Assembly: GCF_029714325.1 (NCBI RefSeq)
Contig: NZ_CP121666.1
Span: 7,657,001 to 7,721,000, forward strand
Origin: Bradyrhizobium sp. CB1717
GTDB lineage: Bacteria > Pseudomonadota > Alphaproteobacteria > Rhizobiales > Xanthobacteraceae
Direction: 5' to 3'
DNA: 64,000 bases
The notes under the pieces are model-generated. The model ran no database searches and had not been told where the DNA came from. It saw only the letters and a list, made by a program, of their open reading frames with translations. Each line of letters starts with the position of its first letter. Position 1 is the first letter of the stretch. Position numbers and translations under genes: made by a program. Positions 13,479 to 30,728 of this stretch are shown in pieces.

Positions 13479-14120
13479 GCTCACCGTAAGCCACTCTCGG
13501 CACGTTCCAAACACGCTAACAATCCTTCGACCTGCTCGGCCGCTTTCGTCACTTCAACGTCTCTGAGGCCAAGCTGCCAGCGACGGACGATCGGCTGCGA
13601 AGACTTGCCGAGTGTGAGCGTGGTGACCTCGCAGGTGAGGTTTGGTGCGCTTGCACCGCAAACAGGCGGCGCCCGACGCTATCGCGGCACAACACGTCTC
13701 CTCCAGTACAATAATGTTTGGCTTGCCCCATAAAATCGCTTGAACCGCACACTGCGTCAGGTTGTAGGTTGGCCGCCGTGACTAACGCTGCGCTATGCGG
13801 CCCTCGACTGGGCGCTTTGGCGAACTCACGGCACCGGCCGGACACTGGGTTGATCTGCCGTTAACCAACCGACCGCGTCTTGTTGCGTGGCTCGCCGGAA
13901 GCGGCCAGACCGATCAACTTCGGGACTCCTGACGGATTCCGGCCGCTGCTGGTCGGCCTACCGCCTTGCTCTCCATTGTTGCGCTCATTTCACGAGCGTC
14001 CTTTTCGCGATCGCAGGATGGAAACGATGTCCATTCGGGCGAGCCAATAGGACCTCCCCAGACGCAGCCGTCACCGCTCGTTGTATGCGCCGCAACTACG
14101 TTCATGCCGGATAAGAAGAC
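13479..14120. other. nodD1-nodD2 intergenic region
   Basis: No credible gene is visible. The region holds the first NolA-type promoter motif (13739-13770), so the leader of a transcript reaching nodD2 would be about 340 bases. Confidence 0.5.
13739..13770 (+). promoter_or_regulatory. Predicted NolA-dependent (MerR-type) promoter upstream of nodD2
   Basis: TTGAAC (13740-13745) and TAGGTT (13765-13770) are separated by 19 bp, the long spacer typical of MerR-regulated promoters. The spacer contains the block CRCACnnnRCGTCAnRTTG that is shared with the sites at 15961, 16869 and 28887. NolA is known to raise nodD2 expression in B. japonicum, which fits this position. Confidence 0.6.
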
Positions 14121-15113
14121 ATGCGTTTCAAAGGTCTGGATCTAAATCTTCTCGTCGCGCTGGATGCTCTAATGACTGAGCGCAACCTCAGCGCAGCGGC
14201 TCGCAAGATGAATCTTAGTCAGCCGGCCATGAGCGCAGCCGTTGCCCGGCTGCGCTCCTACTTCCGTGATGAGCTGTTTGGGATGAGGGGGCGGGAACTT
14301 GTCCCGACCTCACGCGCGGAAGGACTCGCAGCCCCTGTACGCGAGGCTCTAACGCACATCGATCTTTCAATTATCGCGCGGGACGTGTTCGATCCAGCTC
14401 GATCGAACCGGCGATTCAGGATCGGCCTTTCTGACTTTATAACAGTCGTATTCTTCCGAAATGTCGTGGAGCGCGTCGCGCGAGAAGCACCGGCCGTCAG
14501 CTTCGAACTGGTCGCGCTCACCGATGAGCACGATGAGCTTCTTCGCCGCGGCGAAGTCGATTTTGTTATCTTGCCGGAATTATTCATGTCCGGCGCGCAC
14601 CCCAGGGCGGCCCTATTCGAGGAGAGACTCGTCTGCGTAGGTTGCTGCACGAACAGCCAACTACTACGGGGGCTTACATTTGATCGGTATATGTCGATGG
14701 GCCACGTTGCGGTTAAGGTCAAAGGCGCGCGCAAGACGCCGGTCGAAGAATCCCTTTTACTCGATCTCGGTCTCAATCGGCGCATCGACATTCTCGTGCA
14801 GAGCTTCAGCATGATGCCGCCCCTGCTGGTAGGCACCAACCGCATAGGGACGATGCCATTAGGGCTCGTAAAGCATTTCCAAAGAACAATGCCCCTTCGC
14901 ATTGCGGAGCTCCCGCAGCCATTCCCCGCCTTCACTGAGGCGGTTCAATGGCCCGTGCTTCACAATAGCGACCCGGAAAGCCTGTGGATGCGAGAGATAT
15001 TGTTGCAGGAAGCTACCCGCATGGCAATTGGGCAAGAGGCCTCCATCATCTGCACTTCGGAACGGGCTGATACTGCCGGGGATTTCGCACGATCTGTCTC
15101 GCCGTTGTCGTAA
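14121..15113 (+). CDS. nodD2: LysR-type nodulation regulator NodD2
   Basis: The 330-residue product is a full-length paralogue of NodD1, starting [20 protein letters not shown] with the HTH segment [18 protein letters not shown]. In B. japonicum, NodD2 represses nod genes at high cell density and is controlled by NolA. The C-terminus is slightly longer than that of NodD1 ([19 protein letters not shown]). A predicted NolA-type promoter lies 350 bases upstream. The numbering D1/D2 follows from the first copy being the one divergent from the nod operon. Confidence 0.93.
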
Positions 15114-15675
15114 GGACGTTCGCAAGATCTGCGAACCTCATATCCCAACGAATGTCTCAACGCATACAGTTTTGGCTCGCCTCGCTCGAATTCATGGTCG
15201 CTCTATCAAGATCGTCGCAAAAGACGGCTGTCATGACGACGTTGTGTAGGTCTTTCGCACGTTGGCAATAGGCTCGACGTGCGAGCGGCGGGTCAGACTG
15301 TTGGCCTGGTTTTAGAGACAGGGACGTACGTTGCACCCGGCCGCCGGGCGCACCTGCTGCAGAACCGGGGCTGGGCTGCCCTCGTCAACTCTCCGAATCA
15401 GTAGCGGCTCCCGAAGTGCGGAGACGCTTCAGCTTCTTCGGAAGCCGTACCATCACGCACCGTGAGCGCGATGGTCATCGATCATGCACATGACCACGAT
15501 CTCTTGCGCCGTCGAGGCAAGCATCGCGCACGCATGTTGCCCTGTCGCATCACATGGGAGTACATCGCATCTTCGTCGCTCCGCGCCGCGGGTCTGACTT
15601 CTTTTGGCCCTATCGCAGCCAAACGTCTTGACGACGTGCGCTGCCATGACGCAATGACAAACAAGGAGCTGAACG
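15114..15675. other. Gap between nodD2 and the small gene
   Basis: No gene or clear regulatory site is seen apart from the AAGGAG ribosome site just before 15676. Confidence 0.4.
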
Positions 15676-15885
15676 TTGGAGCAATGCAGCGGCGTGTTCG
15701 ATCCGGAAGAGCTTTCCGTCCTGGGACGCCTTTATGATAGTGCGATCACCGCGCTACCCCCATCGATGCGAAGTCCGGAAAATCGCACAGCAATCGCCAA
15801 ACTCATCCTGGAGCGTACAGCGGCTGGCGAGGCTCAACTGGCAAGCCTGACGAACTTGTTGATCACCATTTCCCCTCAGGGTTGA
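15676..15885 (+). CDS. Small conserved protein, paralogue of the product at 21541
   Basis: This 69-residue product has no function I recognise. A TTG start is supported by AAGGAG eight bases upstream. The core FDPEELSVLGRLYDSAITAL matches YYPEDLQVLGRLLDQAVAAL in the gene at 21541, and both continue with a Pro/Arg-Asn-Arg segment and IAKLIL. The pattern Leu/Ile with charged residues suggests a helical domain. It ends about 110 bases before nolA and shares its direction. Being duplicated argues that it is real. Confidence 0.65.
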   Translation: MEQCSGVFDPEELSVLGRLYDSAITALPPSMRSPENRTAIAKLILERTAAGEAQLASLTNLLITISPQG

Positions 15886-15959
15886 TCCCCCGCCATTCTG
15901 AGGATAGTCACCAGTCTCGCGCTGGAATGGAAGACGATCCAGCTAGAGCTTTGAAATAG

Positions 15960-15992
15960 CTTGAATCACACGTGACGTCAGGTTGTAGGCTT
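15960..15992 (+). promoter_or_regulatory. Predicted NolA autoregulatory promoter at nolA
   Basis: TTGAAT (15961-15966), a 19-bp spacer with the shared CAC-N3-ACGTCAGGTTG block, then TAGGCT (15986-15991). The implied transcript would start about at the first nolA ATG (15997), so it could not carry a leader for NolA1 but could encode the shorter NolA forms made from internal starts. Confidence 0.6.
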
Positions 15993-15996
15993 TGAA

Positions 15997-16719
15997 ATGA
16001 ACAACATGAGCAAAGCTATACCACGAAGGCGTCGATGGCGCATTGGCGAACTTGCAGAGGCGACCGGAGTAACGGTACGCACGCTGCATCATTATGAACA
16101 CACCGGGCTCCTAGCAGCTTCAGAGCGTACTGACGGCGGCCACCGGATGTACGACCGCGAAAGCGTGCAACGGGTTCACCAAATTCGAGCGCTACGTGAG
16201 CTTGGCTTCTCCCTTGTCGAGATCCGTAAAGCTATGGAGGGCACGACCTCACTCACCGATCTTCTGCGCAAACATTTAGAACGGATAGAACTTCAAGTCG
16301 CTCGAGCAACTCTGCTGCGAGATCGCTTGCGCAACATGACCATCGACAGTGATATCCAGGTAAGTGTGGATGAGCTGCCTGCCACCCTCAATGCCATGTC
16401 GCGGGTCGAGACGCATAATCAGACGTCCCGATGCACCTGCAAGTTAGCTGCAGATCGCGAGAAGCGGTGGCGGCGGATCCGCGACGACCTGCGTGATTGT
16501 ATGGATCGAGGGGAGCATCCTTGCGGCGAGCGGGCAAAGGCTGTCGCAGTCGCAGCACGCTTGCTGATCGGCGAAATCGCTGGCGCCGATTCACGCGTTT
16601 CGACGATCCTGAAGGTACTTGCACGATTAAGCGCCCCCCGTAGTCTGGCTGGTTGGGATCCCTGCCTCATGCAATATCTCGATCTGGCCCTTGGCGGGTT
16701 GGAGGATCAGCCGTACTGA
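15997..16719 (+). CDS. nolA: MerR-family nodulation regulator NolA
   Basis: NolA controls genotype-specific nodulation in Bradyrhizobium and activates nodD2. The 240-residue product has an N-terminal MerR winged helix (RWRIGELAEATGVTVRTLHHYE, about residues 13-34, then HRMYDRESVQRVHQIRALRELGFSL), a coiled dimer helix and a C-terminal domain (end LALGGLEDQPY). NolA is known to be made in three forms from alternative ATGs; internal in-frame ATGs are present here (residues 4, 50 and later), though I cannot say which are used. An upstream in-frame TGA rules out an earlier start. A MerR-type promoter ends six bases before the ATG. Confidence 0.93.
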   Translation: MNNMSKAIPRRRRWRIGELAEATGVTVRTLHHYEHTGLLAASERTDGGHRMYDRESVQRVHQIRALRELGFSLVEIRKAMEGTTSLTDLLRKHLERIELQVARATLLRDRLRNMTIDSDIQVSVDELPATLNAMSRVETHNQTSRCTCKLAADREKRWRRIRDDLRDCMDRGEHPCGERAKAVAVAARLLIGEIAGADSRVSTILKVLARLSAPRSLAGWDPCLMQYLDLALGGLEDQPY

Positions 16720-16868
16720 CGTCCTCCGGCCGGCTCCGCACGGCATTGCCGATAGGCGCTCGTCGGCTCTGATGCGGGCCAACAGTTTTATGGACTGAAC
16801 CGGACAGTCGTCGTGACCTCGTCGATCCGCGCTCCCTGACGCACCATCGAGGCTCCTTCAAAACGGCC

Positions 16869-16899
16869 TTGAAACGCACCTAACGTCAAATTGTAAGTT
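16869..16899 (+). promoter_or_regulatory. Predicted NolA-type promoter of the binding-protein gene
   Basis: TTGAAA (16869-16874), 19-bp spacer containing CGCACCTAACGTCAAATTG, then TAAGTT (16894-16899). It lies about 125 bases before the ATG at 17024 and is colinear with the other three copies without any gap. Confidence 0.55.
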
Positions 16900-17023
16900 C
16901 TACCGTGGTCGCCAATCTGGCCGACCAACACAAGCTTCGCTTTGACAGACAATCTAAACGTGTAGACACGTCTGATTACAGCTGCTCGCGCTTACTCTTC
17001 AGGTGAACATTGGGAGCTCTACA

Positions 17024-18133
17024 ATGTTGAATCGTTGCGCGTCTGCTGCGAGTGCAGCGCTTCTCTTCTGCGCCCTCGCCTCTGTTGCGCGCGGCTCCGA
17101 CGTCAATATTGCCGTGGCTGGCCCAATGAGCGGAAGCAGCGCTGCGTTCGGCGCACAAATGCGCGATGGCGCAGCTGCGGCAGTCGAGGCGTTGAACGCT
17201 TCTGGCCTATTTCTCGATACCAAGGTGATATTGACTGTCGCCGACGACGCGTGCGACCCGAAGCAAGCTGTCGCAGTCGCGAATAAGCTCACGACAGACC
17301 GGGCCCGGCTGGTCGTTGGCCATTTTTGTTCTTCTGCGTCGATCCCGGCCTCCGAGATCTACGCCGAAGCAGGCATTATTCAGGTGTCACCAGGCTCGTC
17401 AAATCCTCAGCTAACAGAACGGGGCCTTGAGACTGTCTTTCGTATCTGCGGCCGCGACGACCAACAGGGCATCGTTGCCGCAGAGTATATTCACCGGACC
17501 TTCCCTAACGACAAGATCGCAGTGCTCGACGACAAGAGCACCGCAGGCAAAGGTATCGCCGACGTCGTTGAAGCACAGCTTCGGAGATTCGGTGAACAAG
17601 TCATTCGCCAAAGCTATGTAGCCGGTGAAAAGGATTACAGGGCGCTGGTCTCAAGGATGAAGAAGGAACGGGTGCGCGTCGCCTATATCGGCGGTTATCA
17701 TACCGAAATCGGATTGTTTGTACGCCAGGCGTCAGAAGCAAGAGCAGAACTTATGGTCATGGCGAACGATCCTTTGATGACCTCTGAATTCTGGGCCATT
17801 ACAGGCAGCGCCGGCAATGGCACGTTGTTTACCTTCATGCCGGACCCCACCAGGAATGCCAATGCGGCCGGCGTGGTGGCCGAACTCCAAGCTTCCAACC
17901 TGTCCGCTGAAGGCTACACGCTTTACGCCTACGCGGCCGTGCAAGCATGGGCAGAGGCGGTGAACCGGACCGGTTCTTTCAATGCTGTGCGCGTAGCTAG
18001 GGCACTTCGTTCACGGCCGACCGATACCGTGATTGGCCCAGTCCGGTTCGATAGAAAGGGAGACAATGCGGCTCCTGGCTTTCTGGTTTACCGCTGGCGA
18101 GACGGCCGTGTTGAAACTGTCGAGCAGAACTGA
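17024..18133 (+). CDS. Branched-chain amino-acid-type ABC substrate-binding protein
   Basis: The 369-residue product is a periplasmic type-1 solute-binding protein of the LivJ/LivK kind. It has a signal peptide (MLNRCASAASAALLFCALAS, cleavage probably after ARG), then VNIAVAGPMSGSSAAFGAQM, VGHFCSSASIPASEIYAEAG and AAEYI-type blocks of the family. ATG 17024 follows GGGAG by seven bases; a GTG at 17003 is the only upstream alternative. No permease or ATPase genes are next to it, so it is an orphan binding protein whose ligand cannot be told from sequence. A predicted NolA-type promoter upstream would tie it to nodulation control. Confidence 0.85.
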   Translation: MLNRCASAASAALLFCALASVARGSDVNIAVAGPMSGSSAAFGAQMRDGAAAAVEALNASGLFLDTKVILTVADDACDPKQAVAVANKLTTDRARLVVGHFCSSASIPASEIYAEAGIIQVSPGSSNPQLTERGLETVFRICGRDDQQGIVAAEYIHRTFPNDKIAVLDDKSTAGKGIADVVEAQLRRFGEQVIRQSYVAGEKDYRALVSRMKKERVRVAYIGGYHTEIGLFVRQASEARAELMVMANDPLMTSEFWAITGSAGNGTLFTFMPDPTRNANAAGVVAELQASNLSAEGYTLYAYAAVQAWAEAVNRTGSFNAVRVARALRSRPTDTVIGPVRFDRKGDNAAPGFLVYRWRDGRVETVEQN

Positions 18134-18173
18134 TTGGCGGCATCGCCGCCTCTCCAGATCCAAAGTGAAACGG

Positions 18174-18326
18174 ATGATGGGACGCAGTCAGGTCGTTGGA
18201 GCAGCGATACTCGCAAGCTCTCTTATACTTGCAGCTTTCGGAGCGTTTTTCGCGTTCGTTGCAGCGCTCGCAGAGCTAGCCGATGTCGACCTGACGGAGA
18301 CGCTACGTCCGATGATAGACAGATAG
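18174..18326 (+). CDS. Small single-span membrane protein
   Basis: Fifty codons begin at ATG 18174, forty bases after the binding-protein gene. The product has one clear hydrophobic helix (VVGAAILASSLILAAFGAFF) followed by an acidic stretch. The frame is open further upstream inside the previous gene. I do not recognise it; it could be a real small membrane protein or the remainder of a longer gene. Confidence 0.4.
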   Translation: MMGRSQVVGAAILASSLILAAFGAFFAFVAALAELADVDLTETLRPMIDR

Positions 18327-18610
18327 AGCCGTACCGAGCTGATCTGGCACGCAAGGCACAGGACCTCTGAAGCGGCTAACGATGCTTCTGGTCGAGCACA
18401 TCCTCGCTGTGGAGGCGCTTCGGGAACGTCTGTCAATGGTGCGACCGGACCGCCATTTGCGCATTCTCGTGATCCACTCACATGGTGCAAGCTCAGATCC
18501 ACGCCAAGAGAAACGGCCTAAGTGGTCAAACGACGAACGAGACCTCTTTGAGCGCGACGGTATGAAGCAATCAGGCCTCGCCATCTGCCCCATCATCGGA
18601 GATTAATCGA
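18327..18610. other. Gap before the monooxygenase pseudogene
   Basis: A 74-codon frame (18382-18606) lies here but shows no family features. I see nothing else. Confidence 0.3.
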
Positions 18611-19570
18611 GTGAAGAGTGGCCTTCCAAGACTAAGGTGCGGTATTTTCGACCATTTGGATGACGACGGCCGAGATGCCGCACGACAATATGAAGATCGT
18701 CTCAAGCTGACCGAGGCCTGCGACTCGCTCGGTTTCTACGCTTATCACCTGGCCGAACCCGGCGATTACGCTTCGGTCCGCTCGTCCTGTTGCTCAACCT
18801 TTATCATCCATTGCGCGCATTCGAAGAGATCTGCATGCTTGACCAATTGAGCGGCGGCAGGCTCGAGGTCGGGATAGGCCGCGGCTCCCAGCCGATGGAA
18901 TGGGGTTATTTCGGCATCACTGCCGACGCTGCACCAAGCCGTTATACGGAGGCCAGTGAAATCCTCAATATTGCGCTGAAGGGACATACGCTATCTTATC
19001 AGGGACACCACTTCGAGTTCAGCGAAGTACCCCTAATGTTGAGGCCTCATCAACGTCCATATCCGCCTATCTGCATCGCGAGCAATCGGGCTGAGACGGC
19101 GCAGTGGGCCGCGGCAAATGGCGCCAATCTGGCGTGCATAGGTCCCGCCTGTGTTGTCCGGAACGTTACGGATGCCGACCGATCCCATCGAGACCACAAT
19201 ACAGCCGCACACGGCCGCGAGCCCTTTCTCGGGCTGGCCCGCATGGTCGAGATTGCGAAGTCTGATCAGGACGCATACGACGGCCGAAACTGCGTATCGG
19301 CGATGGCTGGAGAGCTTTAAGTTCCTTTACGAGCTTAACGCCATTCCGACACCGTCCGCCCTTGCGCTGACCTTCGATGCAGCACTTGAGAGCGAATTGT
19401 GCGTCGTTGGAACGCCGGCTTCCGTCCGACAGCTTCTTCTTCAGCAGATGGAAGTGGCAGGTGCCAACTACTTACTTTGCCAGCTTGCATTCGGAGACCT
19501 TCCGCTGGAGGTTTCCCTGTACACCGCAACCGCAATCAAAGCTGAAATTCTCGATAGCTTTGACGAATAA
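18611..19570 (+). pseudogene. Luciferase-like (F420/FMN) monooxygenase, frameshifted
   Basis: Three pieces in different frames together make a bacterial luciferase-type protein. The first has LRCGIFDHLDDDGRDAARQY and LGFYAYHLAEP. The second, from about 18780, has FEEICMLDQLSGGRLEVGIG, the family signature, and GYFGITADAAPSRYTEA. The third, from about 19280, has YRRWLESFKFLYELNAI and ends ATAIKAEILDSFDE. At least two frameshifts break the gene, so no active enzyme is expected. It lies inside the gene-poor part of the island. Confidence 0.8.
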
Positions 19571-19736
19571 TGTCTGCATTGGGGGATCGTATGCGTGGCA
19601 AGTAGACCGACGCACTGAGGTTAACCGAAGGTGGTCGCGATTTTGGTTGTCGTTTGCCCGGGACGAAGGCGACCGTCAGCCTCAATGGCCGCGATATCTG
19701 ACCACCTGGCGCCCCTATTTGGGGGCGAGCTTTGGC

Positions 19737-19916
19737 TTAGCGAGCGTTTGCGAACCGCTTTATCAACTCATCCGCGGCCGAACGCTCTTCGTTCGCTTCG
19801 ATCTCCCGGGCCTTTTCAATGAAGGCGCGGCGGGAGGCCGGAGCTGGTCGGATAGTCGCCGACGAGACTCCATGACCCTGTCTTCGGCTTATGGGATCGA
19901 GGGGTGTTTCTGGCAT
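19737..19916 (-). CDS. Small basic/helical protein (59 residues)
   Basis: A minus-strand frame of 59 codons starts at ATG 19916 (MPETPLDPISRRQGHGVSSA) and ends with a TAA at 19737. The second half is a strongly charged helix (RAFIEKAREIEANEERSAAD) followed by ELIKRFANAR. This composition is unlike the noise around it and resembles small conserved proteins of rhizobia, but I cannot name a family. No strong ribosome site precedes it. Confidence 0.45.
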   Translation of the reverse strand: MPETPLDPISRRQGHGVSSATIRPAPASRRAFIEKAREIEANEERSAADELIKRFANAR

Positions 19917-21540
19917 CTTCGTGACATCTGGCGTCCAATTTAGAGGTATTCGCCAGCGATCAGAGCTGCGACCTTTCTGTCTTCTCCATCATGGCCACCC
20001 CTCCATCGACGAATCAGCAGGCTGGCCTAGAGTGCCCATAAGATCACCGCAGCAAGACGGCGGGAAACACTAACTCGCTTTCGAGGTAAGAGAACGATTA
20101 CGCGCGTGCGCGATCCACGAACTGGATACATCCCATCAACACTTTCGATTTTACCAATTTCAGACAAATACCCCATAAGTCGATCGCCGGTTTTCCGGAA
20201 AGCACATTTCACGAATGTCGTGTGAGCAATGGACCCTTTTTGCTTTCAGCATAGTCGCAGGCAGATTCAAGGTTCTCGCGGCTGCATCGCCAACGAGACC
20301 CATCAATCTTTGGAATCGACGCACGTGCGGCGCAAATGCGGTCGGGTGGCTAATCGCAACGTCGGGCGCGCAACCTATCGCGCTAGCGCCTCCCCTTTTG
20401 AAATCATACTAAGGCCCTCCAAGAAGATCGGCTCTCACGCACATCGGTTGGTCAAGGTAAATGCGTGCGCTGCATAGAATTGGGGCAGGCGAACTGCCCT
20501 CTACGCCGGTGCGGGCTGGACTCTTTGCCCTGACCAGGCGGGCGTCGCCGACAATCCGACGCTGTCGCAGCCTTCAAAGAAAGCAGTGCGGTCAGCTATC
20601 TGACCACGCTACGTGCAAGCCGCATATCCTCCGGCCAGGACGAGGCAATGATGTCGATCGGTGTGATGAGACCAGCCTAGCGATCTTACTGCCCGCCCCT
20701 GTACGCCGTGTGACCCTGGTGTCTCACTCTGCTCGCGTCCTCAGTCTTCGTCGGCAGGCGGCTTCCACACCCATTTCCTACAGACTGACGCTACCCCATC
20801 TCATTCTATGCGCTGGCGCTGTTCGACCATATCCCGGCGCGGTTATCCCTTCTCAGCAATTCTTACATCACCATCGGAACGAGGGGTGGAGATACGCGAT
20901 CTGCCGGTCTTGTCTCTTAGCGCCCCCACCTTCCAGGAGCCCATCCGCACCCTCGTCGGACCAGGCATCGCCTGTCAACGAATGGAGAGAGAAACCGCAG
21001 ACGTATGTAGCGGATGTTATTTCTGAGTTGCCTGGCATGGGCTGGGATTTAATTTTCTGGCATAATGAGGAGGCCGGTCTGGACCAGTTGACGGCATGCC
21101 TTCAGCAACAGCTTCGTCCAGCGACAAGCGCTCTTTATGGCACTCTGCCTCGCGAGGCCTCAGGTTATGTCTGGATCGCTATGACAGGCGGCAAGCAATC
21201 CCGCAGCAGTTCGGGCCGCACTTCTCTCGACCTGCCGTCATCAGCGGTGTCCCCACTGGCTGGAGTCACTGTCACTGTCCGTCGCGCTGCACCGGCTCGG
21301 CCGTCGAATCAAATGACGGGCCATCTACAACGCAGTTCGCAGCGTTCTATAGTCGTTTCCGCCTTTGCGGCCCTGTCGCGGCACATGCTGCCACCCTCAC
21401 CCTTCGGCGACCGTGCGTGCGCACCTTGCCTTGTGCAGCAGCCATTCGTTCTATCGCCCGTCTGCCGTCCCGCGAACGGGAAAGCACGACACAACCGTTC
21501 TCAGCCTGCTGCCTGCATTCAACTACTTTGGAGCAACACC
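19917..21540. other. Gene-poor stretch with an orphan nod box
   Basis: The nod box at 20113-20159 is the only clear feature. The plus-strand frame from 20461 stays open into the gene at 21541, but its 360 extra codons are Ser/Arg/Pro rich without domains, so I treat them as non-coding or a degraded gene. Confidence 0.45.
20113..20159 (+). promoter_or_regulatory. Orphan nod box
   Basis: The block ATCCAC-GAACTGGAT, then CCATCAACACTTTCGATTTT and ACCAAT matches about 40 of 47 consensus positions with correct spacing. No intact gene starts within the next 1.3 kb. In B. japonicum the nod-box gene nolY lies near nolA, so this may have served a lost nolYZ. Confidence 0.8.
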
Positions 21541-21912
21541 GTGGAACTTGACCCTTCCAATTCACGTTCAGAGGACCTCAAGCATCGCATCGACCTGCAA
21601 CTCGACATCGTGGCCGCCCTCATACGCGAAGAGGGGAACGAGCTCGAAGCGGTCCGACTGCTAAATGCACTCACAAATCAGATGATTACGGCGGAACTGG
21701 AGCTCGGCCGGCTCGGCGATACGAGAACCCGCGCCGGCGACCGGCAAACGACGCGACTGTCGCGAGACCGTGGCGTTTACTACCCAGAAGACCTTCAGGT
21801 TTTGGGACGCCTTCTCGATCAGGCCGTGGCGGCATTACCGGCAGTGCTCCGAACCCCCGCCAATCGAATGAAGATCGCGAAACTAATTCTGTCACGTGCA
21901 GCAGCGGACTGA
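21541..21912 (+). CDS. Conserved small protein, paralogue of the product at 15676
   Basis: This 123-residue product starts at GTG 21541 with GGAG eight bases upstream. The N-terminal half (VELDPSNSRSEDLKHRIDLQ) is helical and acidic; the C-terminal half (YYPEDLQVLGRLLDQAVAAL, then IAKLILSRAAAD) matches the whole of the 69-residue protein at 15676. So the short gene corresponds to the C-terminal module of this one. I do not know its function. The orphan nod box lies 1.4 kb upstream in the same direction. Confidence 0.65.
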   Translation: MELDPSNSRSEDLKHRIDLQLDIVAALIREEGNELEAVRLLNALTNQMITAELELGRLGDTRTRAGDRQTTRLSRDRGVYYPEDLQVLGRLLDQAVAALPAVLRTPANRMKIAKLILSRAAAD

Positions 21913-22577
21913 GATTTCAGTTGATGGCGCGCTTATCGAACGTTTATCGCTGGGCGGACTGCTACGGCCGTACGCACCAGGGATCGACGAGTTGGCGTTT
22001 ATGGCTCACCGCCCCGTAATCGCGCCGGTGCCGCTGGCTTTTCCATGTCACGACTGATCGTCGCGATGCTCGAAAGCTGGAGCCCGCACCGAGAGCAGGA
22101 GGCCGCGCAGGGTCGAGCAAAGGACGACGTCACGCGGACACATGTCAGAAAGCAAACAAGCAGTGACGGGAAAACGCCACATGCTTCCAGAAACTAGAGA
22201 CTGCGAAAGGAGCGGAACGATCTATTTTCATCGATGTGCGGCTTTAGTCGTGAATGGCATGGCGCCGATCTTCCAATTGCAGGAAGAAGAGCCACAATTA
22301 TTGACCGATACCGAGTAACAAGAGCACTTCGGCAACGAAGCCGTGAAACGCGAGCTCGTCTCAACCGCTTCAGAATTATTTCGAATGGGCCCGGAAATAC
22401 AACATTCGGGGTCATCTGAACTTCAACAAACATCTATAAATTCGTCGAAGCACCGAGAGCAGCTCGATGTCCGAGCGTACTGCGGCTCTGATATCTTATT
22501 TGCTGGGACAAGCCACAGACTCTCGGTTTGCTTTTGCGAAGGTACTTCCTTGTATCAGGACGTGGTGGAGTGTTGAG
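21913..22577. other. Gap with no recognised gene
   Basis: I see no gene here; the short frames lack ribosome sites and family features. Confidence 0.35.
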
Positions 22578-22823
22578 ATGGATCAGTTGTTATCCGAGCA
22601 AGTGCAAATACAAGATGCTATCGTAAGCGCAGCCTTTGATAAGGCCTGGCGCTTTGTGGAGAAGGATCCGTTGCTGGCGCATAATCGCAAGACGATCCTC
22701 TATAGCCGGTTGTGCACTTTTCTTGAGTCTTCGATAAAGAAGGGCGAACGGAATACTTTGAATCTGGCTAACGGGGCGATACGCAGCTTGCGGGCTGAAC
22801 TGGCGCCGTCGACCGCGCAATAG
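22578..22823 (+). CDS. Small conserved hypothetical protein (81 residues)
   Basis: ATG 22578 follows GGTGGAG by seven bases. The product (MDQLLSEQVQIQDAIVSAAF, then DKAWRFVEKDPLLAHNRKTI) is amphipathic and probably all-helical, with no cysteines or signal. Similar short proteins occur in Rhizobiales as far as I recall, without known function. The longer frame from 22467 lacks a ribosome site. Confidence 0.55.
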   Translation: MDQLLSEQVQIQDAIVSAAFDKAWRFVEKDPLLAHNRKTILYSRLCTFLESSIKKGERNTLNLANGAIRSLRAELAPSTAQ

Positions 22824-23704
22824 GGCGCTTGAACCTCTACTGTCACATGAGTTTGGCTTGTCAAGTCCTTGGGAGGGCCTTATGCGGCGGCCAAACAACC
22901 GGGGCAGAGCGTGGTGGTGATGACCTTAATCCACTCATGTTCAGCCCCGCTGAAGACGAGCACGTTCACGAGGACTGTCGCCTTTGCAGCTCTTCTGGTG
23001 ACCACAGACCAATCACCTGGAAAGCAGAGCAAGTCGGCGACGAGACGGGACAGCCGAGCTAATAGTCGCCGACGGCAGGAAAAGCCATACCGTTTCCTCT
23101 CCTGACTTTTGGCTCGGCACGAGCTTGCATGTTCAAGCAAGATCCTCATCAGGCACAGCCGCATCGGCTCCTTGACACCCGTCGATCGAGGTCGAGCTTG
23201 AGGATCATCGTGCTGCACTTGCGATAGGTCCTGGGTCAAACGCGATCCAGGCCTGTGATCGATCATCGCCGCATCGCTCACGATTGCAAGCGGCAGCACG
23301 ACGGTGCTGACGGGAGAATGAGGTTGAGCGCACAAGACGCGTCCTTCGATCGGCGGTCTTCATTTACCGAACTCTCTGAATAGCGAGCATGCACGTGACG
23401 TGTTGGTTCAGCCTGGCTTTGTCGCTAGTCAGCGACAGAGGGAGCCAAACAGCTCGCAGCGCGGCGTCCCGTCACAGGTCATCACGAACGGACCGTATTC
23501 GAAGAAGCATCTGCGCGAAGCGACCAGCGTCAGGCCCAGCATTTCGGTCGAGGCAGTGCATGGCACGTTGCGCGCTCCACAATCTGACGCGGCGTGCGAT
23601 TGGACCCATTTCTTTCGAAGACATGTTGTGCGGCAGTTACAGCAATTCGCGTTCATATTGTTAAAGGCACGACGCCGGGGGCACCGAAAGGAAACGACAC
23701 TCGA
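22824..23704. other. Gap with no recognised gene
   Basis: A 151-codon minus-strand frame (22880-23335) and short plus frames are present, but none shows family features. The region may be an eroded insertion. Confidence 0.35.
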
Positions 23705-24433
23705 ATGAAAAAGATTCTGATTCTGACTGCAAGCATTGGCGCACTCGGCGCCGCCGCTCCCTCATTCGGCACGGACTTGGCCGGACAGCCCGTCAAGGTC
23801 AAGGCGCCACTGCTGCCGGTCGCAGCCCCGATTATCGACTGGTCCGGCTACTATATCGGTATCAATGGTGGTTGGGGAACGAGCCACAATTGCTGGGATT
23901 TCAATGGTGTTACTCCCGAGGGCTGCCATAATTCGACCGGCGGGACCATTGGCGGCCAGATTGGCTATCGTTGGCAGATCTTCAACATGGTCTACGGCAT
24001 CGAAGGTCAGGGCAACTGGGCCGACTTCAGCGGCTCCAATGTCAGCACCGCCTTTCCGGCAAACACCGTTGGCACCACGACAGACGCATTCGGTCTACTC
24101 ACGGGACATATCGGCTACGCGTTCAATGCCGTCCTACTTTACGGAAAGGGTGGTGCTGCGGTGACCAGCAACAACTATGTCCTCAATTCGGTCGCTTCTG
24201 GCACCGAGCTTGCCAACAGCAATGATGTGCGTTGGGGTGGCGTGCTGGGGGCCGGTGCCGAAGTTAGCCTCACGCCGACCTGGTCAGCTGGCGTCGAGTA
24301 TAATCACTTGTTCATGCAGCGCAGCAACATAAGCTTCCCAGGGTTTCTCGGCACGGACCGCGCCCACCAGGACATTGATCTCATCACGGCACGGCTCAAT
24401 TACAAGTTTGGCTCGCCCTTTGCCAAATACTGA
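23705..24433 (+). CDS. Omp25/Omp31-like outer-membrane beta-barrel protein
   Basis: The 242-residue product starts MKKILILTASIGALGAAAPS with a signal peptide, then a short linker and WSGYYIGINGGWGTSH, the typical start of the 8-stranded barrel family (OmpA-like/Omp25) of Rhizobiales. Alternating strands follow (YGIEGQGNWADFSG, VLLYGKGGAAVTSNNY, SAGVEYNHLFM), and it ends LITARLNYKFGSPFAKY with a terminal aromatic, as barrel proteins do. ATG 23705 follows AAAGGAAA; the frame open from 23594 adds nothing meaningful. A terminator hairpin follows the stop. Role: envelope structure. Confidence 0.88.
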   Translation: MKKILILTASIGALGAAAPSFGTDLAGQPVKVKAPLLPVAAPIIDWSGYYIGINGGWGTSHNCWDFNGVTPEGCHNSTGGTIGGQIGYRWQIFNMVYGIEGQGNWADFSGSNVSTAFPANTVGTTTDAFGLLTGHIGYAFNAVLLYGKGGAAVTSNNYVLNSVASGTELANSNDVRWGGVLGAGAEVSLTPTWSAGVEYNHLFMQRSNISFPGFLGTDRAHQDIDLITARLNYKFGSPFAKY

Positions 24434-24456
24434 TCTCCACGCGGTTGCGTGAATCG

Positions 24457-24485
24457 GAACCCCGACCCCGGTCGGGGTTCTTTCC
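24457..24485 (+). terminator. Intrinsic terminator after the Omp gene
   Basis: A perfect 11-bp stem GAACCCCGACC / GGTCGGGGTTC with a two-base loop is followed by TTTCCT, about 25 bases past the stop codon. Confidence 0.8.
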
Positions 24486-24586
24486 TCAGCTGCTCCTCTC
24501 CCCGCCGGCGCCCAGTCCAGTTCCGAAGCACCAGGTGCGAGCTCGTCTGAGTAATGGATTCAGAGGCTGGCTGGAGTGTAGCCGAG

Positions 24587-24703
24587 ATGCCGCCAACACA
24601 CTGGGAGAACAGGTCAGTCATTCGACAATTCATCGATCTCGTGAATTCCCACAACCTCACGCAGCGTGAGATAGCGGACTTGCTCCAAGGAGCGCATCGG
24701 TGA
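24587..24703 (+). CDS. Short helix-turn-helix-like fragment
   Basis: Thirty-eight codons from ATG 24587 contain IRQFIDLVNSHNLTQREIAD, which looks like the first helices of an HTH domain, and then stop. It is probably the remainder of a truncated regulator. No ribosome site is seen. Confidence 0.3.
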   Translation: MPPTHWENRSVIRQFIDLVNSHNLTQREIADLLQGAHR

Positions 24704-24781
24704 GCTCGCCGAAGGTGCCATGCTCAACATGCCAGAAGCTGGAAGCCGAAGATTTGGCTGTTAGTGCCCCGTTCACAAATT

Positions 24782-25507
24782 TCAAAGAACATTGAGGCGA
24801 ATAGCTATAGCGACCGCTTGAATTCGGCTGGTCGCATCCAGCTTGCGCATCGCGTTCTTGACATGAAAGTTGACTGTATTGTAGCTGATTCCCAGGATCT
24901 TCCCAATTTCCCATGACGATTTCCCCTCTGCCACCCACCGCATGCAACTGATCTCCCGCTGCGATAGTGCAACTTTTCTTTCGCAACCATTATCGCAGGG
25001 ACGAGCGATGTCGCCATAGGCGGTGTGAAACTGCCAAGCCAGCGCCTTGAGATGACCGATGCGGTCCTGAGGATCAGCATCGTCGAACGCAGATGCAAAC
25101 GACACCACAGATATCCGACCCAACGGCCCAAACAACGGCACGCTCATGCCATGCTTCAGCCCCGCCTCTCTCGCCTCGTCCAGTACGCGTCTTTCGTCCG
25201 GTCGAAGCTGATAGTGGTCGGCGAGTTGATCCCACAAAAACGGCCGCGTAAGCATCGGCGTCCGCCGAACCACCGGATCGATAGTATGGTATTTGCGTTT
25301 GAAGTATCGATCGCACCAGTCTGGCGGCCACTTCACAGCCACTGTCGGGGGTGGATACTCCGCCAGCCGAAGTGGCTCAACGAAGTTGAGAGCGCCGTAT
25401 GCGACTTCACTGAAACCTTCCTTGGTGGCACAGCCTACAAGAAGCTCGAATAGCGCTCTGAGTGAATGCGTTTGGTTAGCGCATTCGGTGAAGCTAAAGA
25501 GGTCCAT
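24782..25507 (-). CDS. LuxR-family quorum-sensing-type regulator (solo)
   Basis: The 241-residue product has an N-terminal autoinducer-binding domain with the family residues (WPPDWCDRYFKRKYHTIDPV, then PFLWDQL and GLKHGMSVPLFGPLGR) and a C-terminal LuxR helix-turn-helix (LSQREISCMRWVAEGKSSWE, then IGKILGISYNTVNFHVKNAM). ATG 25507 has GAGG nine bases upstream and gives the normal LuxR length; the frame is open to 26212, but the extra part is not LuxR-like. No luxI-type synthase is present in the window, so it is a solo receptor that may answer a signal made elsewhere or by the plant. Confidence 0.85.
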   Translation of the reverse strand: MDLFSFTECANQTHSLRALFELLVGCATKEGFSEVAYGALNFVEPLRLAEYPPPTVAVKWPPDWCDRYFKRKYHTIDPVVRRTPMLTRPFLWDQLADHYQLRPDERRVLDEAREAGLKHGMSVPLFGPLGRISVVSFASAFDDADPQDRIGHLKALAWQFHTAYGDIARPCDNGCERKVALSQREISCMRWVAEGKSSWEIGKILGISYNTVNFHVKNAMRKLDATSRIQAVAIAIRLNVL

Positions 25508-26855
25508 GATGGGCGCCTCAGGACGACGATCGAGCTTCCCGTCATCGTGTTCGGTTGCGCTTGTTTCAGGCGGAGCCAAATTCCAGTCCATGAGCTGAAC
25601 TCGAGAGTTAGTTATTCGTGCAGTCTGAACGCTAGCGCTGTGCCGGGCGCCATTCGCCGAATTCGTTGCCCTGCCGCCGAATGCGCCGGCATGATCGCTT
25701 GAAAAACCGGAGATAGCGCCATCATCCCTGCCCCTGAGGCTGAGCGGAAGTGATCGGTCCAGTTCGCCGATAGCGCACTGGCCAGATCGGAGATCATCGC
25801 CCTCATCGGTGTTGAAGGATTGTGCCATCGATACGAAGCCAACGGTGTCCTGTTTGATGATGCCGACACCGATAGAAGGTCCGCGGGTCCTAGACTGAGC
25901 TTCGAAACAGCTCCACCGGCTAGAGGCTTGGCTCTGTTGAGCTTGCATGGCGGGAAAACGAAGCCGAACGACGCTTTGATTTGTCTCGAGGCCGAGCACG
26001 ACGAGATCCTGGGCTCTGATCTGCGCGATACAGCTAAGCTCAAGCGGCTTGGGCGCTCGGGACTCGAGGAGCGTCTCAGCATCCATTCTCTGCTTGGAGA
26101 CGAAGACAACGGGAGAGTCATGTCTTTTCCCAATCTTGAGAGATGCCATCGCTAACCGTTCGCCGGTTCTCCGCCGTGCGACGGCGCCGGCGACGCGATC
26201 GATGAGCAACACGAAACAGGCGGCGCAAAAGCCATACGCCTCGCATCATTGTGCGGCGTCTCATCGACTCCGTCCGGCAGGCTTGGCGCAAACGGACCGA
26301 ACGTGCAGAAAGGGGCCACCTTAAAGGCGCAACGAGAGATACTCGTAACGGCGAGATCTGCTTGATGCGAAGGAAACTTTGCATGCGCTTCTCCAGCAGG
26401 GAGAGGACCCGCGCCAAACCAGCAAGTGTCATACCAACTGTTGATTTCACCAAATCAAACGTCGCAGAAAGGGCTTCGAACGCCCACGTTTGGTTGCGAC
26501 GTAGGACTCTCGAAGCATTTATGACATGCGGAAGAAAGGCGACAACACCATTGCCAGGCGCGGCACGAGGTGAGCTACAGCAAGAAATGCAGCTCACCTC
26601 GGCGGCCCCCTCGAGTGCCGCCCCCTTAGGGCCCAAACGCAGCCCTATTCCAGCCCAGTCAAGTGCCAAGTTCGGCAATTGATGGGACGGTCCAAACATG
26701 GCACCCGTTAAGAAAATTGAACTGACTGCACCTCCGGCCAGCGATTCCGGCGAAGCGTTTAGATCCGTCCCCAAGCAGAAACACGGTTAGCTGATGCACG
26801 AATCATGATGGGCTCGGTGGAAAACGGCGAAGATTGTCGCCAGGGTCGGTGAAGC
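25508..26855. other. Gene-poor stretch upstream of the LuxR and TauE genes
   Basis: Frames on both strands (for example 26118-26774 minus, 218 codons) are open but show no family signature. I see no repeat, RNA gene or IS end. Confidence 0.35.
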
Positions 26856-27572
26856 ATGGCTTCTCTGCTCTTCGCGATCATCTCACTGCTCTATGCGAGC
26901 GTTGGCCAGGCTGGTGGGACTGCATTCGTCTCGCTAATGGCATTTTTTGGTATGTCATCGACAGAGATGCGCCCGACGGCACTTGCTCTCAACATTGTCG
27001 TCGCGACTTATTCTACGTGGGTCTTCAACCGCAACAAGGTCGTTGACTGGGCACTCCTGCGCCCGCTTCTCTTTTCGTCGGTGCCAGCGTCGCTTGCCGG
27101 TGGCTTGATTGTGCTCGAGGACCACGCGTACAAGACGCTGACGGGGCTCGTTCTTCTTCTGGCGAGCGCAGTGATGATCATGCAGCGGGGACGAGCTGCC
27201 GATCGTCTTTGCGAAACTCCACTCACGGCAAGCGTGAGCATTGGCGCAACCCTTGGCCTGGTTTCCGGCCTGACCGGCGTGGGCGGCGGAGTGTTCCTCG
27301 CGCCGACGCTCATCACACTGAATTGGGCATCACCGAAGCAGGCCGTCGCGTTATCACCCGCTTTTATTCTGGCCAATTCCACAGTTGGCTTCGTCGGAGC
27401 TCTTTTCAGCGGCCAATTTCCCTCTCCGGATTTGGCTCTTTACGCTATCTCTGCGCTGGCGGGTGCGGTCGCTGGAACGGTAGTCAGCCTGAACTGCCTG
27501 AACCCGGCAGGCATCAGATTTATCCTAGTGGCGGTTCTGGTCGTTGCCGGCATCCAATTGGTTCTCACTTGA
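26856..27572 (+). CDS. TauE/SafE-type sulfite/organosulfonate permease
   Basis: The 238-residue membrane protein has about seven hydrophobic segments arranged as two repeats, the layout of the TSUP (TauE/SafE/DUF81) family. The family-type repeats are ISLLYASVGQAGGTAFVSLM near the N-terminus and LGLVSGLTGVGGGVFLAPTL in the middle (the GxGGG core). These permeases export sulfite, sulfonates or related anions. The start ATG 26856 has GGTGAAGC just before. No neighbour suggests a substrate. Confidence 0.88.
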   Translation: MASLLFAIISLLYASVGQAGGTAFVSLMAFFGMSSTEMRPTALALNIVVATYSTWVFNRNKVVDWALLRPLLFSSVPASLAGGLIVLEDHAYKTLTGLVLLLASAVMIMQRGRAADRLCETPLTASVSIGATLGLVSGLTGVGGGVFLAPTLITLNWASPKQAVALSPAFILANSTVGFVGALFSGQFPSPDLALYAISALAGAVAGTVVSLNCLNPAGIRFILVAVLVVAGIQLVLT

Positions 27573-28886
27573 AAGTCTCAACTCCCATCTTTCGTGAGAT
27601 CGGCAGGAGATCCAGCACGGTCAGAACATGATGGAGGCCGCAGCTTAAGTTCTGGTCCGCGCGCCTTGCCTAACTCTGAAAGCCGCCGACGCGACCACGA
27701 AAAGCTGTCGGGCCGAGCGGCGATGGGGCGGATCACCTCGCGCATCCCAGCTGATTCTTATGAGCCGAGCGGTCCGTACCTAGTCACATCCCGTTCGCGC
27801 TTTCAATTTGGCGGGAAGCTCAATGTTGGCGGGGCGCGCGAGCAGGATGAGGCCTACCTCGATCTCGTCTATGGCTTGCGCGGCCCTCTAATCTAGGGCG
27901 CAGTAACGGAGGAAGAAGAGCATCTGATGGGCGAGGATCGAGCACGACCACGCTAACCTGCGGATCGCGCCAGGGGGCGTCTTCGACTTTCTCAAGAGCG
28001 GTGGGGAGCCTGGAAGATCTACTTCAATGTAGAACCGGCACGCCGCGCAATTTCCTTTCCCGCGCGTGTGTCGGTTACGTTCTCATGGAGAATATCACGG
28101 AAGGTGATGTGCTGAGCGCCAAAAGTCGCAGGCAAATTCGAGATGCATGGATGCGAAGGCGCGGCAATCAGCCGCCTCGGCCACGAAGCCGTCAAAATAT
28201 CGCGCGTGCAGCCTTTGAAATCATCCGCGCCACAATAGTCATCCTTTTACCGGTCCCCGATGAGTTCGATGCCTTCGGCGTTGTACAACAGAAATTGTGG
28301 GGCGCCCACTTTCGACTGATCACGCTGTTTGGCCGCAATCTCCTTGTTGCCTGGCTAGGCTCAGCTCTCATTTCCGGGAGACGAGCTCCAGGTTTGATTG
28401 GGGCCTACCACACTTCCTCGATCCGCTGTGAATGGACTGAAATGGCAGGATGCGAAGGCTAATTTCATGCAATGAACAGGCGCAAGATCTCCCAGCCGGC
28501 TCCTGCATAGACGGCTCCAGCTCGGAGCATCGAGAACATAGTGACGGGATGGTCGACGCCTGACCAAGCAATCTATGTGAAACTGACTGCGATCGCATCA
28601 ATGCGACGCCAAGGAAGGCTAACGGAATAGACATGCGGGATCTGGCGAAGGACCGATAGCTCCATTGTGAGTTGGTGAGCTACATTAGACAGCGACGAGA
28701 CGCCGCCGAACCAAGGCGCCCCGACGCACTTCGCCGGGGGGCAGAAAGTGCGCTGGGGTCGCCCCAACATCATCAGTACATCCGTGATGATGCTTGTGGC
28801 AATGAGACAAGCAGCGTGGCGGAATTGAGGCTTATGCGTTCAATACTAGAGATCAAAACTCGTTTTCGTCGCCCGCGCCAAAGGAC

Positions 28887-28917
28887 TTGAATCGCACGTC
28901 GCGTCACGTTGTGCGAT
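28887..28917 (+). promoter_or_regulatory. Fourth copy of the NolA-type promoter motif
   Basis: TTGAAT, a 19-bp spacer with CGCACGTCGCGTCACGTTG, then TGCGAT. The spacer block agrees with the other three copies, but the -10 element is the poorest. The next intact gene is hemN, 470 bases downstream. Confidence 0.45.
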
Positions 28918-29390: not shown

Positions 29391-30728
29391 TTGCAGACCT
29401 CCCTCCTTAACAAGTATTGCGATGCTCACCTGCCTTGGTACACCATCTATCCAACCGTGCCGGATTTCTCCGCGATGGTCGGTGCCAAGACTTGTGAGAC
29501 ATGGCTGAGGCGGCTGCCGCCCCAGGAGCCCGTTTCGCTCTACATCCATGTTCCGTTCTGTCGCTCTATATGTTGGTATTGCGGCTTCCCTACAAGCCTC
29601 ACTCGCGGCGAGCGACCGGTCGGCAATTACTTGGCAGCAGTGCGGGACGAGATCGGCTTGGTCGCAGAGCAAGTGCCGTGCGCTCTGCCGGTGAGCGACG
29701 TGCATTTCGGCGGCGGGACGCCGACCACCATTGCACCGCGCGATTTTCTCACTTTGATGGAACTCCTGCGCCACTGCTTTGCATTCAGTAAATCAGCTAC
29801 CATCGCGATAGAAATCGATCCGCGCGGAGTCACGGCCGAGATGGTCGAAACGTTACAAGCGGCCGGGATCAGCCGCGCGAGCATCGGCGTGCAAAGCTTC
29901 GATCCGGTGGTTCAAAGGTCGGTCAACCGCGTGCAGAGCGAGGAGCTCACAGCTTCGGTCGTCGAAAGTCTACGCCAGCATGGCATAAGCCGCATCAATT
30001 TCGACCTTCTCTTCGGACTGCCGCATCAGACGGTGCGGTCCTGCGTGGACTCCGCGCGGACGGCCCTGGCCATGCGGCCAGACCGGCTTGCGGTTTTCGG
30101 CTATGCTCACGTCCCCTCCTATATGAAACGTCAGCGCCAGATCGACGAGACGGCGCTGCCAGATAATGTCGCCCGCGGTGAGCAAGCCGCGGCTATTGCA
30201 GACACGCTGGTCTCGGCCGGCTACTGCCAGATCGGGCTCGACCATTTCGCCCTGCCCAATGACGAGCTCGCGCAGGCGCAGAAAGCTGGTCGGCTGCGCC
30301 GCAACTCCCTGGGGTATTCGGCTGATACCTGCAAAGCCGTGATCGGCTTAGGTCCGTCAGCCATCGGCCGTCTGCATGACGGTTACGTCCAGAACGAGAT
30401 CGAAACCGCTTCCTATCACCAACACATTCAGACTGGCCGTCTGGCAACCTCAAAAGGCTACTGTCTCACCGCCGAAGATCGCCTCCGCGCCGCAATCATC
30501 GAGCGTCTGATGTGCGATTTGCAGGCCGACGTACCAGCGATCTGTGCTGCTCACGGATTTGATCCGATTCCTCTTCTCGCTTCGGCCGACCGCCTGGGAA
30601 TGCTTGCAGAAGACGGGATAGTGGAGATTGAAGAGGGATTCATTCGAGTCAAGCAGAAGCACCGGTTTGTCATTCGCGCTGTTGCTGCCGCGTTCGACAC
30701 TTATCTCGACCGCATTCCTATTAACTAA
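29391..30728 (+). CDS. hemN1: HemN-like radical SAM protein (HemN1 type)
   Basis: HemN catalyses oxygen-independent decarboxylation of coproporphyrinogen III in heme synthesis. The 445-residue product has the family start YTIYPTVPDF, the radical-SAM cluster motif CRSICWYC (Cys57, Cys61, Cys64), FGGGTPT and GVQSFDP, and a full C-terminal domain. The position of the further conserved Cys of E. coli HemN (CxxxCxxCxC) is Phe66 here. The start is TTG 29391, right after an in-frame TAA, with only a weak ribosome site. B. japonicum has hemN1 in its symbiotic region and hemN2 elsewhere, and only hemN2 was found essential as I recall; this gene fits hemN1. Confidence 0.82.
   Translation: MQTSLLNKYCDAHLPWYTIYPTVPDFSAMVGAKTCETWLRRLPPQEPVSLYIHVPFCRSICWYCGFPTSLTRGERPVGNYLAAVRDEIGLVAEQVPCALPVSDVHFGGGTPTTIAPRDFLTLMELLRHCFAFSKSATIAIEIDPRGVTAEMVETLQAAGISRASIGVQSFDPVVQRSVNRVQSEELTASVVESLRQHGISRINFDLLFGLPHQTVRSCVDSARTALAMRPDRLAVFGYAHVPSYMKRQRQIDETALPDNVARGEQAAAIADTLVSAGYCQIGLDHFALPNDELAQAQKAGRLRRNSLGYSADTCKAVIGLGPSAIGRLHDGYVQNEIETASYHQHIQTGRLATSKGYCLTAEDRLRAAIIERLMCDLQADVPAICAAHGFDPIPLLASADRLGMLAEDGIVEIEEGFIRVKQKHRFVIRAVAAAFDTYLDRIPIN

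Follow-up and report, generated by a model that had tools for sequence, protein, structure and literature searches.

The present study analyzes a repeated promoter-like element in a 64,000-nucleotide stretch of the genome of Bradyrhizobium sp. CB1717 (the window, G000:C1:7657001-7721000, G000 being the window's own genome with its 9.23-Mb chromosome), in which nodD2 and nolA lie close together. Four copies with the spacing of promoters activated by MerR-family proteins had been noticed in it and taken for a regulon of NolA. The repeat proves to be a genuine class of promoter, conserved and linked to NolA, of the form C-TTGAAtC-gcACGTnGCGTca-grTTG-TAnnnT, and it is very probably the operator-promoter of NolA, a MerR/TipA-like regulator. 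The sites and genes of the locus are as follows, in positions of the window and with distances in nucleotides (nt).

13740..13770, + strand: predicted NolA-dependent nodD2 promoter (-35 TTGAAC 13740-13745, dyad 13743-13763, -10 TAGGTT 13765-13770)
14121..15113, + strand: nodD2, LysR family
15961..15991, + strand: predicted autoregulatory nolA promoter (-35 TTGAAT, -10 TAGGCT 15986-15991)
16006..16719, + strand: nolA, TipA-like MerR-family regulator, 237 amino acids from the conserved start
16869..16899, + strand: predicted promoter serving the binding-protein gene and whatever lies behind it (-35 TTGAAA, -10 TAAGTT 16894-16899)
17024..18133, + strand: periplasmic binding protein gene, branched-chain amino-acid type (below the NCBIfam cut-off), from its likely ATG; the listed open reading frame (ORF) runs from GTG 17003
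18790..19320, + strand: ORF for a luciferase-like (LLM) oxidoreductase, behind the binding-protein gene
23576-23604 (also given as 23578..23604), - strand: weak fifth site, inverted, with a poor -35 and 3 mismatches, lying about 100 nt ahead of a + strand gene for an outer-membrane beta-barrel protein
23705..24433, + strand: the outer-membrane beta-barrel gene that the weak inverted site precedes
28887..28917, + strand: fourth site, target uncertain, next clear gene hemN (-10 TGCGAT 28912-28917)
29391..30728, + strand: hemN, oxygen-independent coproporphyrinogen III oxidase, possible distant target

The pattern TTGAANCRCACNNNRCGTCANRTTGTRNG fits the four originally aligned copies, at 13740, 15961, 16869 and 28887 and all on the + strand, with 0 mismatches each, and in 100 dinucleotide shuffles of the window it occurred at a mean of 0.00 even with up to 3 mismatches allowed. 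By weight matrix the four scored 37.2-41.9, while 1 Mb of simulated sequence reached 16.3 at most; the shuffles are the fairer test because the matrix was built from 16 own-genome sites that include these four. The claimed 19-bp spacing also held, with TANNNT at spacer 19 in 14 of the 16 own-genome sites and at none of the other spacers from 14 to 23. Neighbouring genes had been named correctly as nodD2, nolA, a Peripla_BP_6 protein and HemN. The HemN gene, proposed as a distant target, is there, but with about 467 nt from the predicted transcript start to the gene it is the least secure of the named targets; HemN-like genes also lie downstream of sites elsewhere, at about 980 nt in G001 and about 1850 nt in G009.

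The anatomy of the sites is that of a MerR-type promoter. A logo built from 142 different 27-mers with scores of 30 or more in the collected loci, many of them orthologous and hence not independent, showed an A-rich stretch at -6 to -4, then GC, TTGAATCGCACGTnGCGTCAGrTTGTA and a T at position 31 (0.80). Among the 16 strong own-genome sites, which lie at different places, C precedes TTGA in 15, T stands at position 31, the end of the -10, in 15, and A is found at -6, -5 and -4 in 11, 12 and 11. The TA of the -10 lay inside the searched core, whereas the preceding C, the A-rich stretch and the final -10 T lay outside the search pattern, and their conservation although unused in the search supports a promoter. 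The best dyad was centred on position 14 (mean complementarity 0.65, versus 0.11-0.44 at the other centres tried), with pairs 4-24, 5-23, 7-21, 10-18, 11-17 and 12-16 complementary in 0.96, 0.85, 0.68, 0.91, 1.0 and 0.75 of sites; pairs 6-22, 8-20 and 9-19 were weak, being complementary in only 0.40, 0.30 and 0.11. According to PMC9909328, the -35 and -10 of MerR-regulated promoters are separated by an over-long spacer of 19-20 bp, and activation is by distortion. Both the over-long spacer, at 19 bp, and a palindromic operator within it, here an imperfect dyad, are present in the repeat.

Regulator genes of the MerR family commonly carry their own operator, and for nolA the sequence evidence places the same operator before the regulator gene. 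The expectation that the motif would lie upstream of nolA in other strains was borne out in 67 of 67 loci recruited with nolA, all from Bradyrhizobium, in each of which the site starts 29-38 nt before the equivalent of window position 15997, the start of the query ORF. An alignment of 12 sequences showed the site as a conserved block and placed the conserved nolA start at ATG 16006, not at 15997, which is only the start of the longest ORF; the nolA transcript is predicted to begin near 15998, 8 nt before that ATG. A truncated nolA copy, 61% identical, retained its site, starting 38 nt upstream. There were also nolA matches with one in-frame TAG (G201, G130, G261, G143, G243) and other lineages with an N-terminal match only, and all of these keep sites. 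A site follows nolA as well in 63 of the 67 loci, the four without one being L035, L047, L066 and L067. For nodD2 the count was based on the 64 loci in which a site lies 1.2-4 kb upstream of nolA (L058, L066 and L067 had no such site), and here too the expectation held, a NodD-type ORF following the site in 57, five of them short or broken (L037, L049, L055, L062, L063). There was no NodD-type ORF after the site in L050-L054, L056 and L057, the sites of L051 and L057 being weak. The nodD2 transcript is predicted to start near 13777, giving a leader of about 344 nt to the start at 14121, and the distance from site to nodD2 was about 355-395 nt in most measurable loci, which implies a long leader; its predicted length is largely kept. 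For the sites at 16869 and 28887 the predicted starts are near 16906 and 28924. A transcript-start map of B. japonicum (PMC4842269), in its accessible part, names nolA in the reference list only and is neutral on these predicted starts.

Over the whole of G000, a relaxed pattern of 27 bases, allowing up to 2 mismatches, matched 17 places, all within 7.388-7.898 Mb (510 kb), and the same pattern reversed as a control matched 0. Sixteen of the 17 had 0-1 mismatch and the last was the weak site of the window. Thus the four sites of the original prediction stood as sites, but four was too small a number for the regulon, the genome holding 16 strong and one weak. We call the 510-kb stretch a symbiosis island because nod genes lie in it. 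Restriction of the repeat within G000 to this stretch is the pattern that a piece of mobile or duplicated DNA with no regulatory role could produce, but conservation fades within about 40 bp, and from strain to strain the sites largely keep their orientation and their distance to nolA and nodD, so that this explanation is extremely improbable.

The prediction that the motif would be scarce where nolA is absent was examined in 265 genomes of the genus, using the site pattern with up to 1 mismatch (the reversed control matched at most 1 per genome) and calling nolA from a NolA match at an expect value (E) of 1e-20, with truncated and stop-bearing copies included and the best 10 candidates scored per genome. 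It was upheld. Sites were present in 140 of the 265 genomes and nolA in 137, and all 137 nolA-bearing genomes had sites, 4 to 28 each, as against 3 of the 128 without nolA (Fisher p 1.8e-73, kinship ignored). NodC was found at E 1e-100 in 135 of the 265. Four genomes with nolA and no NodC match at that threshold (G184, G186, G188, G216) had 10-18 sites, or 16, 18, 16 and 11 places with a longer pattern allowing up to 3 mismatches (control 2, 0, 0 and 0), while two with NodC and no nolA (G037, G133) had by the longer pattern one strong and one degenerate place each, versus 1 and 0 in the control. From these discordant genomes the sites track nolA more than nodC, with only six genomes separating the two.

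This distribution also bears on the idea that the repeat is a common type of promoter, read for instance by a special sigma factor and lacking an operator in its spacer. CTTGAA resembles the RpoH -35. PMC5596368 reads the nolA promoter as sigma-70, TTGAAT-N16-TTGTAGGCT, a conventional promoter with a 16-bp spacer that we considered and dropped. We regard an ordinary promoter class as very unlikely, in that the spacer positions are strongly conserved and bear the dyad, and the motif occurs in a single stretch of this genome and is missing from almost every genome of the genus without nolA, in which the same housekeeping sigma factors are expected.

The search for the element was extended to the order. 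In 397 genomes of the order, 382 of them outside the genus, seven matched with up to 1 mismatch, three from the genus and four others, and the only exact match among the 382 was in G622, from another family. There the site is a perfect palindrome whose TTGA begins 62 nt before the ATG of a MerR gene, and the encoded protein is 54% identical to NolA. Proteins of the G622 type (E 1e-25, best seven candidates per genome) were found in 4 of the 397 genomes, namely three of the genus and G622, the same four that have the exact site. A wider spread of this NolA relative was sought and not found in the genus of G622 (1 of 14 genomes only) or across a sample of the class (2 of 367, both of the window's genus). 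A protein search with the G622 relative gave 151 hits at E 1e-20, of which the best 120 were MerR proteins, many with a TipAS domain.

Several known systems are comparable. In E. coli the copA promoter under CueR, also of the MerR family, lies 40-70 bp upstream of the annotated copA start (31 letters); it has by our own reading of the letters the same 19-bp spacer and a dyad at positions 4-24 with centre 14. Unlike the NolA site it has other half-site letters, CueR is a metal sensor, and CueR is not known to have an island-wide set of sites. TipA of Streptomyces is the closest solved structure to the DNA-binding domain of NolA (2vz4, E 4.2e-15); it responds to antibiotics, whereas NolA acts in symbiosis, and three forms are reported for NolA (PMC5596368) and two for TipA (PMC9909328). 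The TipAS effector domain of the TipA subfamily gave no match in NolA at E up to 10, with filters that drop most matches above 0.1, and in the G622 relative it matched at E 1.7e-4, just below the Pfam cut-off. The regulons of the nod box with NodD and the tts box with TtsI in rhizobia are built on promoter motifs controlling scattered symbiosis operons. In having scattered symbiosis operons under one motif they resemble the NolA site, but motif and regulator family are others, and the NolA site has MerR spacing.

Published work on NolA may be set beside these sites. The gene was reported in 1991 (cited in PMC5596368). PMC5596368 states that the current model, for which it cites Garcia 1996 and Loh and Stacey 2003, assumes a NolA site ahead of nodD2; the paper's own preliminary screen of 2017 found no conserved NolA element there. 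Our literature search, with most subscription papers outside its scope, found no description of the motif as a NolA site, though this very site may have been proposed earlier in Garcia 1996 or Loh and Stacey 2003. According to PMC9927474, NolA activates itself and nodD2 in USDA110, and in a nolA mutant of B. guangxiense CCBAU53363 11 genes changed, 10 of them lowered, with four named. Among the changed genes is X268_RS37710 (LLM), for which that text leaves the direction unstated. It lies behind hisC (X268_RS37715) on the same strand in an apparent operon, and a site (score 33.5), on that strand too, precedes hisC by 319 nt. Seven sites, one of them weak, were present in six pieces of p53363 that measured 25-50 kb each. 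G046, in which a 3-kb nolA stretch is identical to that of p53363, had 22 places over its whole genome with up to 3 mismatches versus 6 in the reversed control, and of the eight places with 0-2 mismatches seven were on a plasmid-sized contig and one on a large contig. The genes nopP and virK were considered as site-bearing and rejected: there was no site in 50 kb around nopP, whose promoter gave no shift with NolA in the assay printed in PMC9927474, and none near virK, as given below.

A number of observations weigh against NolA as the protein served by the repeat. Since nolA and the sites ride the same islands, their co-occurrence is partly co-inheritance. Only one of the four named genes changed in the nolA mutant lies behind a site; virK and X268_RS35990 (placed beside virK from the order of the locus tags), both reported as NolA-dependent, had no site in the scanned stretch. 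In CCBAU53363, which has one nodD only, NolA was reported not to regulate nod genes. In USDA110 under elevated CO2, nolA stood at 1.7 on the array with no change of nodD2 listed, and quantitative reverse-transcription PCR gave no change in either; in strain SFJ4-24 both fell. Three genomes have sites without nolA, namely G037 and G133, which retain one strong site each, and, as the main exception, G079, with six sites, no close nolA and no NodC match; full rescoring for a closer nolA relative in the three gave none better than E 4.5e-14. The site loci of G079 are L099, L106, L112, L118 and L123. Such genomes could mean that these are MerR-type promoters served by another MerR protein, or shared with one, nolA being a target and not the master, and G079 alone has six MerR-like matches to NolA. 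However, seven MerR-like loci from G079 and G133 had no site at a score of at least 12, and the idea that another MerR gene of G079 has its own site was dropped as none carries one. A site stands before nolA in all 67 nolA loci, before the truncated copy and before the distant relative in G622, and 125 of the 128 genomes without nolA have no sites. Service by another MerR protein is therefore improbable in our view, and we strongly infer, from sequence, that NolA itself binds the sites.

Genes downstream of the remaining own-genome sites are varied. The distance from site to gene ranges from about 100 bases to more than 1 kb, so that the first target gene is not always sure. By locus they are the following.

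L085: biotin carboxylase, carrier and carboxyltransferase
L086: trpD and a 272-amino-acid ORF resembling trpC by eye
L087: hisC and an LLM oxidoreductase
L088 (G000 near 7.489 Mb, within the island stretch): amoC and amoA, the site about 780 nt upstream of amoC
L089: PhnW/sulfhydrylase fusion
L090: nuclease-like gene and carbonic anhydrase
L091: no clear target
L092, with two sites: a second trpD and flavin reductase
L093: AMP-binding and ATP-grasp-type ORFs
L094: response regulator and secretin
L095: small ORF without a family match

In the other sampled genomes the recurrent downstream families were the binding protein, response regulator/secretin, small Cys-rich ORFs, trpD, AMP/ATP-grasp ORFs and XopAD-like proteins. 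In L149, L163, L118 and L140 sites lie upstream of one ORF family, of which the L149 member resembles the XopAD/skwp type III effector (below the NCBIfam cut-off). A second weak inverted site, on plasmid p53363 at 629905 (- strand, score 20.9), likewise precedes an outer-membrane beta-barrel gene. The weak inverted copy about 100 nt before a beta-barrel gene in two lineages may reflect a repressor-type use of the operator.

These patterns are consistent with a mechanism in which the -35 CTTGAA and the -10 TANNNT, at 19 bp apart, would be too far from each other for sigma-70 polymerase alone. A NolA dimer would bind the 21-bp dyad within the spacer, and once activated NolA would distort the DNA so that both promoter elements are engaged. 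By this route NolA would activate its own gene, nodD2, whose product represses nod genes, and a set of operons across the symbiosis island. A broader proposal, which we offer tentatively and believe to a degree slightly short of even, is that NolA is master over a regulon that spans the island, with 4-28 promoters in each genome. In this view a drug or metabolite sensor of the TipA kind, regulating itself through a palindromic operator, would have been captured by symbiosis islands, and the operator would then have spread to nodD2, the binding-protein/hisC/LLM operon, and acyl-CoA carboxylase, trpD, AMP-binding/ATP-grasp, pilus-type and XopAD-like genes, of which the enzyme genes may provide, by synthesis or import, the small signal to which NolA responds.

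In the literature searched, neither the DNA site of NolA nor its direct targets are defined, and the motif is a concrete candidate operator for testing, from which candidate targets can also be listed for any Bradyrhizobium genome. If NolA does act at these sites, they would be a route by which it reaches nodD2, and this suggests that the host-specific effects of nolA may run via metabolic and secretion genes besides the nod genes.

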